Virus record (IMG/VR): IMGVR_UViG_3300030118_006208
Coordinates: 1 to 35,315 of that record
Source of the DNA: a virus
Reading direction: 5' to 3' (one strand)
Length of the DNA stretch: 35,315 nt
Both the position numbers and the translations under genes were made by a program. The number at the start of each line of letters is the position of its first letter. Within the stretch, counting starts at the first letter, position 1. This document shows, one piece after another, positions 29,574-34,158 of this stretch. Under the pieces are notes generated by a model. It searched no databases. It saw only the letters and a program-made list of their open reading frames with translations, and had not been told where the DNA came from.

Positions 29574-30464
29574 TTAATTATCCTGGGCCAACTTAGCGAA
29601 GTAAGACAAGGTTTCATCCTCATCATTGCTAGCTTCCTGAATTGGTGCAGGTTCTGCTACCTTCTCTGAAGGAGCAGGCGCGTAACGCATATCCTCGGGC
29701 TGCATGACTTCCCCAGCATCTACGCCTAGCACTCTGTTTAACTTAGCTTTTAGTTCAGCATAAGTTTTGTAGTTTTCAGGATTGGTGAATTCTGAAAGTG
29801 AATATAGTTTCCCATATATACTTTCTAACGCTTCATCATCGCCACCGGCTACAGCGGCTGGAGCTGCGAATTCTGACTTATCATAGTTTGTCCAACCTTC
29901 GACCTTTCTGATTTTGATCTTAAAGTCAGCACCTTCCCAAAAATCGAAAGGATTCACTGGTTCCTCATCAGCAAACTGAGGCTGCATTTGGTCCATAATC
30001 TTATCAAAGATTTTTTTACCAAATTTGTAAAGGAATACTTTTCCTTCAGCGTCAGGATTAGCTGAATCAGATACTACCATAATATTAGACACATAATGTA
30101 GTCGTCTTTTCCTATCCCTAGCGGTTTGCTTATCTTCCTCACGGCCTGAGTTCCAAAGTAATCCATTTGATTCACTAACAGGATCTGCCTGTCCAATGGA
30201 AGTTAAGCTATTTTCGATATACCATAAACCAGTAGGTCCTTTGAACCCATGATCCCAATATCGCACCCAAGGTAAGTCCTCACCTTCTTTCGCAGGTAAG
30301 AAACGGATAACGGCATAACCATTACCAGCTTTATCTTGTGTGGGTTTCCAGAAGCGATCATCCGCGTATGATTTCGTTTCTGTTTTAGTTGAAACTGCTT
30401 CCGCAGCTTTTACGAGTTGGTCGATAGACGAGCCTCGTGAACTCTTTAAATTTGCAAATGACAT
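29574..30464 (-). CDS. 32: Single-stranded DNA-binding protein gp32
   Basis: 296 aa; T4 gp32 has 301. Core matches: DKAGNGYAVIRFLPAKEGED, WVRYWDHGFKGPTGLWYIEN, VSNIMVVSDSANPDAEGKVF, LYKFGKKIFDKIMDQM, PFDFWEGADFKIKIRKVEGW and TNYDKSEF, all as in gp32. The zinc site is incomplete: His72 (DHGFK) is kept, but the T4 Cys77/87/90 region here reads ENSLTSIGQADPVSESNG, with no Cys. A short basic N-terminus (LKSSRGSS) and an acidic tail (SNDEDETLSYFAKLAQDN) fit the cooperative and protein-interaction ends. gp32 coats replication intermediates and coordinates helicase loading. GGAG lies nine bases before the ATG; it has its own strong promoter and terminator. Confidence 0.95.
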   Translation of the reverse strand: MSFANLKSSRGSSIDQLVKAAEAVSTKTETKSYADDRFWKPTQDKAGNGYAVIRFLPAKEGEDLPWVRYWDHGFKGPTGLWYIENSLTSIGQADPVSESNGLLWNSGREEDKQTARDRKRRLHYVSNIMVVSDSANPDAEGKVFLYKFGKKIFDKIMDQMQPQFADEEPVNPFDFWEGADFKIKIRKVEGWTNYDKSEFAAPAAVAGGDDEALESIYGKLYSLSEFTNPENYKTYAELKAKLNRVLGVDAGEVMQPEDMRYAPAPSEKVAEPAPIQEASNDEDETLSYFAKLAQDN

Positions 30465-30528
30465 TGTATTTCTCCGTATTGCGTTGTATTTACTGAATTA
30501 TCCACTTTACTCATAATATATACTATAT

Positions 30529-31607: not shown

Positions 31608-32762
31608 TTAAAGTACTCTTAATAGAATACAATCTTTGTTTATTCTACCCGTTGGTTTTTTCACCTTAGTAGTAAGACTAGATAAAACCTTTTCAATTTG
31701 TTTTTCTGTCTTAGTTAATATCTGAGGAAGCACTTCATCTGGCTTTCTCAATGTAGTAGTTATTGAAACTTTATCGTCCCAATTATATACTGTTGAACCT
31801 CTTACTTCAAATCCAGCTGCTGAATCATTAGCATACACTGATAAAGATCTTTGTTTAGTGTTATACACAAACAATTTATTTTTACCAGGAATCATTATTG
31901 GATTGATTGATACCAATTTAGCTTCATCATCTTGTACTTTATAATTAAGCTTTACAATTTGAGCATCAGAAGCTTTTGGCTTTTTTGCCCTTGGTATACG
32001 AGTTACCTTTGTATTAGCTTTCAACCTATCAATATCGTCTAGAATATTGGTTAGCAAATCAAGCATTTTTCTTAAGTCACCCTTTTTGATATGGGAATAT
32101 GCTTCTACAGCCTGCTCACACTTTTTGTGATAAGCATCGGAAACTAAATCATATTCAAATTGGATTTTTTCCTTGAACATGTTAATTCCAGCACCCTTGA
32201 TTTTATGAAGTTGTAATAGACCATAGGTAGGAAATACAACTTTCTTTTTGTCGAATTCACCTTCCATCCATTTGTCAACTACCATAGTATCAAAGTCATG
32301 CCAAATAGTTTCCATAACCTTTTTACGCATTCTAACTGCTGGTGGTATAACAACCGGCTTTGGTTTATTATCTTCTTCTTTGACAGTTGCTTTACCTAAA
32401 GCTTCTGCCTGGAAAATTTTATTATGTACTCTTTCGATTAGTTCTTCATTTAAAGGATAGCCTTCCCAACCATTATTGATCATTTCAATATGTTGATAAG
32501 TACCCATACGATATTTGTAATCAGGTACTTTTTTCAAATTAGCAATTTGCTTTTTATTAAACTTAAGTACTCTTTTACAATATGTAAGAACAGTTTCAGT
32601 TGCTTTCTTTTTATTTTCAAAATAGTAGAACCAATGAGTTGCTCTACGATATTCTTTTTGCCTATCCTCATCACTTTCTGGAATAGGATTATGTGGACCA
32701 TAACTAGGTTTTGGTCCCATGAATGCTTCATCAGCATTTTTTAATCTTCTTTGTTTAGCCAC
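31608..32762 (-). CDS. Conserved marine T4-like protein of unknown function, 384 aa
   Basis: Start GTG preceded by AAGGAG and AAAGC. N-terminus KQRRLKNADEAFMGPKPSYG; a helical Lys-rich middle (RMRKKVMETIWHDFDTMVVD, KIKGAGINMFKEKIQFEYDL); then a KVTRIPRAKKPKASD linker and a C-terminal domain with LVSINPIMIPGKNKLFVYNT, KQRSLSVYANDSAAGFEV and GRINKDCILLRVL. I have seen this layout in other marine T4-like phages as a hypothetical protein; no domain name is known to me. No catalytic motif. It is placed directly before gp33 and is preceded by a strong structured leader, which suggests dosage control. Basic linkers suggest nucleic-acid contact, unproven. Confidence 0.85.
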   Translation of the reverse strand: MAKQRRLKNADEAFMGPKPSYGPHNPIPESDEDRQKEYRRATHWFYYFENKKKATETVLTYCKRVLKFNKKQIANLKKVPDYKYRMGTYQHIEMINNGWEGYPLNEELIERVHNKIFQAEALGKATVKEEDNKPKPVVIPPAVRMRKKVMETIWHDFDTMVVDKWMEGEFDKKKVVFPTYGLLQLHKIKGAGINMFKEKIQFEYDLVSDAYHKKCEQAVEAYSHIKKGDLRKMLDLLTNILDDIDRLKANTKVTRIPRAKKPKASDAQIVKLNYKVQDDEAKLVSINPIMIPGKNKLFVYNTKQRSLSVYANDSAAGFEVRGSTVYNWDDKVSITTTLRKPDEVLPQILTKTEKQIEKVLSSLTTKVKKPTGRINKDCILLRVL

Positions 32763-32831
32763 GCTTTCTCCTTATAAAGCGCTCCCCACCGAGGTATTGT
32801 GATAAGGAGTTAATAGTCCTCAGTGGGGAGC
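32763..32831 (-). promoter_or_regulatory. Predicted kissing-loop translational control leader
   Basis: On the leftward RNA, a 14-bp stem (32818-32831 with 32781-32794, one G-U pair, no gaps) closes a 23-base loop that contains CUCCUUAU (32802-32809). Immediately 3' is a second hairpin, GCUUU/AAAGC (32776-32780 with 32763-32767), whose eight-base loop is AUAAGGAG, the ribosome binding site. The two loops are perfectly complementary over eight bases, and the second stem abuts the GUG start. The G-U pair would be a C-A mismatch on the other strand, showing the structure fits the leftward RNA. The genome here is AT-rich, so the GC-rich stem stands out. Regulator, if any, unknown. Confidence 0.75.
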
Positions 32832-32836
32832 TAAAA

Positions 32837-33064
32837 TTACGAACGTATATAAAGATGTTTAACTCCTATGACATAGTTTTCAGCTGCATCTTCTGCATAT
32901 TGTTCACTATGTCCTTCATATAGTTCATCTACAAGCCACATATTATCTTTATAAAATCTGGCTCCATAATTACCATTTAAATCGACAAATGTTTCAGCCT
33001 TTAAATTATCTTGCGTAAATGTAGATAATATTTTATCGGCTGTTATTATTTTTTTATCGATCAT
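32837..33064 (-). CDS. Small unknown early protein, 75 aa
   Basis: Begins MIDKKIITADKILSTFTQDN and contains GARFYKDNMWLVDELYEGHS followed by EQYAEDAAENYVIGVK. This segment resembles a small hypothetical protein common in marine T4-like phages. No known domain. Overlaps the preceding gene by four bases (ATGA). Its stop lies six bases before the GC-rich stem that controls the next gene. Confidence 0.75.
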   Translation of the reverse strand: MIDKKIITADKILSTFTQDNLKAETFVDLNGNYGARFYKDNMWLVDELYEGHSEQYAEDAAENYVIGVKHLYIRS

Positions 33065-33493: not shown

Positions 33494-33789
33494 GCGTATT
33501 GATAAACATAAACATCAACACGCTCAGCATGTCGAATAGGTAGTGACTGATCATAAGCTCTGGGATTTTTACCATCAGCAATGGCATGAATAGTCCTAGG
33601 GCCACGGCCTTGAAGCTTAACTCTATACCTAGGATATTTAACAATTTGATTGTTACTCCCATAGAGCATACGCTCTTCCAACCTCTTATTTTCTTTATTG
33701 ATCAACTTAACAGTCTTACGAATGTTTTCTACTTCAAGCATATCACTAGCAGATTCTGTGAATGCAGTCATTATTCTATTTTCGCTCAT
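33490..33789 (-). CDS. Small unknown early protein, 99 aa
   Basis: The N-terminus is helical and charged (MSENRIMTAFTESASDMLEV, ENIRKTVKLINKENKRLEER), then a compact basic domain with YPRYRVKLQGRGPRTIHAIA and a C-terminal HAERVDVYVYQYA strand. The basic half could touch nucleic acid. No family recognised. ATG overlaps the stop of the 101-aa gene. Confidence 0.75.
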   Translation of the reverse strand: MSENRIMTAFTESASDMLEVENIRKTVKLINKENKRLEERMLYGSNNQIVKYPRYRVKLQGRGPRTIHAIADGKNPRAYDQSLPIRHAERVDVYVYQYA

Positions 33790-34094
33790 TAGTAATCTCC
33801 ATCAGCCGAACGGTTAGCGTTATAGGCATCCATATAGGAAGTACCCTCCAAGTAACGTGCAGTATCCTTATCAGAATAATACATGTTTTCAGGTCTGTTA
33901 AAGTCCAGAGAACCTGGCATTGCTTTACCAGCCTTTTTAACAGAAGCAGTAAGCTTCTTGTGCAGTTTCATTTCTGCAGCTTTTTCAGCTTTACGCTGAT
34001 CTAGTTTTTTGATAGCCATTTGAAAGTCGGCTTCTTCTTGACGTTTAGCCCTAGCTTTTTCAGCTGCGGCTTTAATCATTTTCAATCTATCCAT
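33789..34094 (-). CDS. Small charged helical early protein, 101 aa
   Basis: The first ~55 residues are Lys/Ala/Glu-rich helix (MDRLKMIKAAAEKARAKRQE, IKKLDQRKAEKAAEMKLHKK), then a Tyr/Asp/Asn-rich tail (PENMYYSDKDTARYLEG, YMDAYNANRSADGDY). AAGGAG is seven bases upstream of the ATG, and a strong promoter lies 35-65 bases upstream, so this is the first gene of the small-gene run leading to gp33 and gp59. Function unknown. Confidence 0.78.
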   Translation of the reverse strand: MDRLKMIKAAAEKARAKRQEEADFQMAIKKLDQRKAEKAAEMKLHKKLTASVKKAGKAMPGSLDFNRPENMYYSDKDTARYLEGTSYMDAYNANRSADGDY

Positions 34095-34129
34095 AATTAA
34101 CTCCTTAATTTATTATTGAATATATGTAT

Positions 34130-34158
34130 ATTATAACACAGTCTTTTCGAAAAGTAAA
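34130..34158 (-). promoter_or_regulatory. Early sigma70-like promoter, copy A
   Basis: Leftward TTTACT (34153-34158), 17 bases, TATAAT (34130-34135), preceded by CC and with TGTG just before the -10 (extended). The spacer holds the 12-base palindrome CTTTTCGAAAAG. Nearly identical to the promoter at 35007-35035. Confidence 0.78.

Follow-up and report, generated by a model that had tools for sequence, protein, structure and literature searches.

A conserved RNA hairpin lies at positions 32781–32831, leftward strand, of the window, by which we mean the whole 35,315-nt stretch of DNA analysed (IMG/VR record IMGVR_UViG_3300030118_006208). The hairpin is apparently undescribed. Its large loop presents a near-invariant anti-Shine–Dalgarno (anti-SD) core and is complementary to the ribosome binding sites (RBSs) of promoter-proximal genes. 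Judging from the sequence comparisons, the best reading is that of a 3′-UTR anti-SD hairpin that represses translation of these genes, and we give it slightly better than an even chance. The window covers part of the genome of an uncultured T4-like phage. By gp6, Methylophilales phage Melnitz and Pelagibacter phages Mosig and HTVC008M are its closest isolates, at about 40% identity.

The hairpin sits between two leftward reading frames. One is a 75-aa ORF of the ORF list (32837–33064), with its stop codon 5 nt from the stem; the other is a 384-aa gene (31608–32762, GTG start at 32762). The latter matches phrog_11903, a family of unknown function; its protein was modelled (pTM 0.36), and the model had no match in the PDB. 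Downstream of this gene are gp33-, gp59- and gp32-like genes. The leader of the gp32-like gene (29574–30464) holds GTGGATAATTCAGTAA at 30490–30505 (leftward), about 25 nt upstream, and some 60 of the loci contain this sequence at a single place and free of mismatches. Possible roles are an operator for gp32 or some other conserved element of the leader.

On the leftward strand, the arms at 32818–32831 (GCTCCCCACTGAGG) and 32781–32794 (CCTCGGTGGGGAGC) form a stem of 14 bp. They enclose a 23-nt loop (32795–32817) that holds CUCCUUAU at 32802–32809. The single non-Watson–Crick pair of the stem is a U-G pair, which is a wobble on the leftward strand only. RNA folding gave a z score of −3.9, with none of 200 shuffles as stable, and the hairpin is the top-scoring one of the 35-kb window. 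A small hairpin predicted by folding, GCUUU-AUAAGGAG-AAAGC (32763–32780, leftward), follows the stem directly. It has 5 bp, carries the RBS of the 384-aa gene in its loop and is followed by the GUG start. The stem with its wobble pair, the loop, the small hairpin and the GUG start had been described in the first-pass annotation and were confirmed, as was the exact 8-nt complement between the large loop and the adjacent RBS. A match to the complement of the SD core is common in itself. The duplex with the adjacent RBS has a predicted energy of −10.2 kcal mol−1 over 8 nt, compared to −14.7 kcal mol−1 over 12 nt with another RBS of the window.

About 105 related loci were collected through the 384-aa protein, and about 85 out of 100 have the hairpin. 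Anchored scanning recovered it from 70 relatives; the distinct stems, that of the window included, number 47, and roughly 14 further hairpin loci were added by eye. It is absent from about a dozen loci (L029, L071–L075, L101, L110, L119, L130, L131, and L134). Stem sequences are unrelated between clades, yet the pairing is kept. In one clade with stems of equal length, nine of the 11 outer pairs and one inner pair have changed on both sides, and all cells of the same-length alignment pair, with none unpaired. When wobble pairs were scored in a strand-neutral way, they favored the leftward RNA over the other strand by 46 to 2. Owing to the covariation of the stem and this bias, the element is assigned to the RNA of the leftward transcript.

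The conserved loop core, ACUCCUUAUC (32801–32810, leftward), was defined from the loop profile of the 47 distinct hairpins. ACUCCUU is near-invariant in it and AUC almost so, whereas loop length, inner helices, stems, and flanks vary. The anchored scan is biased toward ACUCCUU(AUC), but an unanchored hairpin scan run on a second set of loci agrees with it: strong upstream hairpins were found in 48 loci, 42 of which have CUCCUU in the loop. The relatives support the anti-SD of the large loop as the conserved part of a leftward-strand RNA element. One genome (G020) has a changed loop, UAUCCUUAUC, which matches over just 9 nt. There is one such hairpin per genome, which rejects a multi-copy repeat, and CUCCUU is missing from the loops of all other strong hairpins in these genomes. 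The sole other hairpin found by pattern (L242) looks like a chance occurrence. No Rfam family matches the hairpin. The isolates phiM12, RHph_I1_18, Cr30, DLP_6, BUCT-ZZ01, OC, and PA5oct have phrog_11903 homologues and showed no hairpin. Melnitz, Mosig, and HTVC008M gave no phrog_11903 match, and in the 42-kb stretches read no match to the hairpin was found.

In the relatives too, the stem begins a few nucleotides past a stop codon, which closes the final gene of the upstream unit. This final gene differs between clades. Most relatives have a sigma70-like promoter (TTTACA-N17-TATAAT) 3′ of the hairpin, which would drive the phrog_11903 gene, and their hairpin lies 60–500 nt away from that gene. 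The promoter is absent, and the hairpin abuts the gene, in the window, L002, L005, L010, L065, and some others. As these loci are nested in promoter-bearing clades, the abutting layout, including that of the window, looks derived. A promoter directly before the hairpin is not general; the TATAATG seen in L003 and L007 is the end of the upstream ORF. Some loci differ between hairpin and gene. An apparent tRNA-like sequence lies between the hairpin and the phrog_11903 promoter in L013. In L019 and L025, the TATAAT box ends 6–8 nt before the phrog_11903 start codon, and the mRNA from that promoter may be leaderless. A tiny membrane-like ORF overlaps the phrog_11903 start (ATGGCTAA) in place of an SD in L026, L027, and L030, where it is likely to be translationally coupled to the phrog_11903 gene.

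The loop fits promoter-proximal RBSs better than other ones. Across 16 contigs, a stretch of 9 nt or more complementary to the loop occurs at 34 of 135 promoter-proximal RBSs compared to 7 of 533 other genes (p 4e-19), and the predicted 16S pairing of the two classes of RBS is equal. Perfect loop–RBS complements reach 15 nt. The matching leaders have the form TATAAT-atacatatattaaattGATAAGGAGTnnATG and belong to genes such as a CobT-like and CobS-like pair, an LVIxTQYxENY family, and an MxRLxMIKAAAEKA family. Two promoter-proximal genes had been taken for nrdA and nrdB; this was rejected by family searches, which gave a CobT-like ‘peptidase’ (phrog_459) and a CobS-like AAA ATPase (phrog_249, AAA_5). 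The best candidate partner in the window is a 12-nt perfect loop complement, TAAGGAGTTAAT (34096–34107, leftward), in the RBS of the ORF at 33789–34094 (leftward). This candidate target gene encodes 101 aa, has homologues with complementary RBSs in relatives, and is the first after a sigma70-like promoter identified by consensus match (TTTACT-N17-TATAAT, 34130–34158, leftward). Its product has no PHROG or Pfam match. Leftward genes are tightly spaced from this ORF to the hairpin, with only weak matches to promoter or terminator consensus sequences. The hairpin may therefore lie at the end of the ORF's own transcript, a continuity suggested by the gene layout only. A few genomes with the hairpin, for example L026 and L090, show no strong partner in the stretch examined. 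In G030, G031, G032, and G020 (loci L264–L302), the promoters of promoter-proximal genes share a near-identical cassette spanning the −10 box and the leader (TATAATatacatatattaaattGATAAGGA), which may have been copied within genomes. The targets are not independent, because their leaders are similar promoter–RBS cassettes.

The loops also fit the RBSs of their own genomes. When loops were swapped among 31 groups, the own duplex (−10.35 kcal mol−1) was more stable than the swapped ones (−9.43, sd 0.16 kcal mol−1; p<1e-5), and for one homologous gene the own loop again fitted better than swapped loops (n=11, p 1e-4), with both permutation p-values ignoring kinship. At this gene, the loops AUUCACUCC, CUUACUCC, AUUAACUCC, and UAAACUCC face the RBSs GGAGUGAAU, GGAGUAAG, GGAGUUAAU, and GGAGUUUA, respectively. 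The base after GGAGT complements the own loop in 68% of cases, compared to 36% (sd 8%) after permutation. On a tree, the loop base concerned changed about six times; independent contrasts lean toward pairing without significance, which so few changes cannot provide. Leaders with TAAGGAGT account for 34 of 154 where the hairpin is present and 0 of 34 in relatives without it (p 9e-4), and the GGAGT half of the match goes with the hairpin. Leaders with GATAAGGA also occur in close relatives without the hairpin (9 of 34), which makes this half of the match a property of the clade. For the same reason, the excess of GATAAGGA over hairpin-less isolates was rejected as decisive evidence.

The first-pass annotation had proposed that the two stems and a loop–loop helix clamp the RBS and the GUG start. 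As a general function, the proposal amounts to a cis-acting element whose large loop would form a kissing loop or pseudoknot with the RBS next to it, and which would regulate the phrog_11903 gene alone. The window itself, with the exact complement adjoining the loop, speaks for such an element. So do the 16 or so abutting relatives, where most adjacent genes carry an SD complementary to the loop over 6–10 nt. The phrog_11903 gene is always downstream, but the loci were found through that gene. However, the small RBS hairpin is not a shared element; it is stable in the window and L002 only, and in the other abutting relatives the equivalent stretch folds weakly or not at all. Nor are both partners conserved jointly with their hairpins. 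The annotation had named relatives that keep the RBS and lose the loop as a refutation, and the reverse was found: the loop is intact where the gene that follows lacks an SD or has only a poor one (L018, L019, L025, L026, L030, L079, L117, and L120–L123). A promoter separates the hairpin from the gene in most relatives, and RBSs of promoter-proximal genes elsewhere offer the loop better pairing. Moreover, a linker of 3–5 nt across a 14-bp stem would force the loop strands to fold back, which should be costly. We reject the kissing loop as the general function and regard control confined to the phrog_11903 gene as quite improbable. What stands of the proposal is the RNA element with its conserved anti-SD loop. 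The kissing-loop mechanism is at most a special case, and local masking of the RBS may occur in the window as one instance of a broader anti-SD role.

The loop could instead be a recognition site for a protein (a phage repressor, the downstream product, or a host factor), with the SD match reflecting shared specificity or chance. Protein operators, too, typically combine a large single-stranded loop, invariant in its core, with a stem of variable sequence. This explanation appears unlikely, since the core exactly complements the SD, the flanks tend to fit the RBSs of the same genome, which protein binding does not predict, and the model of the downstream protein has no match in the PDB. That the hairpin serves only as an intrinsic terminator or 3′-end stabilizer, with an incidental loop sequence, fits its place directly after stop codons and the TTTT found within 10 nt behind 22 of the 47 distinct hairpins. 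However, the U-run is absent from more than half of them. In the window, the combination of a GC-rich stem and a U-run was not found, and the tail reads GCUUUAUAAG. The loop is the most conserved part of the element, and the lack of CUCCUU loops in the other strong hairpins of these genomes further makes this reading very unlikely. Least credible of all is an action as DNA or as a rightward RNA, whose hairpin would show UAAGGAG in its loop. The rightward strand folds too in the window and replication genes are nearby, but the wobble count favors the leftward RNA and the hairpin tracks leftward stop codons.

In the anti-SD reading, the hairpin would close a group of small genes transcribed from a promoter that is sigma70-like and probably early, and the stem would serve to present the unpaired ACUCCUUAUC. 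The loop would pair with the SDs of promoter-proximal mRNAs, among them the SD of the gene that opens its own unit. Where the hairpin abuts the next gene, as in the window, the loop would pair with the SD of that gene too. This pairing would block ribosome loading and could create a substrate for RNase III. The mode of action would resemble that of the icaR 3′ UTR, OppZ or c4 RNA. The hairpin may act in cis, or in trans as a released 3′-end RNA. The outcome would be negative feedback or a timed shut-down of translation. A more far-reaching version, which we regard as possible but doubtful, is that in this lytic marine T4-like family a dedicated antisense hairpin reads a common SD leader and switches off a whole set of mRNAs; the targets would include the CobS-like ATPase and CobT-like genes in some genomes. 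If true, such a switch would be the RNA analogue of RegA-type translational shut-off. In either version, a conserved RNA family of uncultured ocean phages, absent from Rfam, would link the 3′ end of a phage transcript to the translation of its own and other promoter-proximal genes. Sequence defines the targets, so a reporter host could be used to test antisense translational control in lytic T4-like phages.

Several known RNAs resemble the hairpin in part. The Cuckoo RNAs of alphaproteobacteria, reported by Reinkensmeier and Giegerich in 2015, are said to be small hairpins with an unpaired anti-SD-like motif, CCUCCUCCC. As so described they are bacterial and carry that motif, whereas the phage hairpin carries ACUCCUUAUC in a single copy. 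The 2015 study is cited in PMC10253847. The manA, wcaG, and PhotoRC-II motifs are structured RNAs of marine phages, located in the 5′ UTRs of metabolic and photosynthesis genes (PMC2864571). Like the hairpin, they were found in marine T4-like phages by sequence comparison; unlike it, they are not in a 3′ UTR, and none of them matches the hairpin in the Rfam search. The c4 antisense RNA of phages P1 and P7 (Rfam RF01695) has loops complementary to the ribosome-binding region of a phage mRNA (PMC12197685). Both are structured phage RNAs with a loop complementary to phage ribosome-binding regions. However, c4 belongs to temperate phages and has one target (ant), and its covariance model showed no match in sequence or structure to the hairpin.

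The 3′-UTR-derived small RNAs OppZ and CarZ of Vibrio cholerae are cut out by RNase E; an RNA of ~50 nt from just past the last stop codon of the operon feeds back on its translation (PMC7398697). The phage hairpin, known here from sequence, is also placed directly after the last stop codon of its unit. In the icaR mRNA of Staphylococcus aureus, the 3′-UTR anti-SD motif UCCCCUG pairs with the SD of the same mRNA, which blocks ribosome loading and forms an RNase III substrate (PMC3868564). The phage hairpin likewise has its anti-SD in an unpaired part of the 3′ UTR, and the 12-nt complement of the window is at the first gene of the unit, whose transcript it may share, going by the gene layout. 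While icaR is one bacterial gene, the phage hairpin occurs in many genomes, with another motif and several candidate targets.
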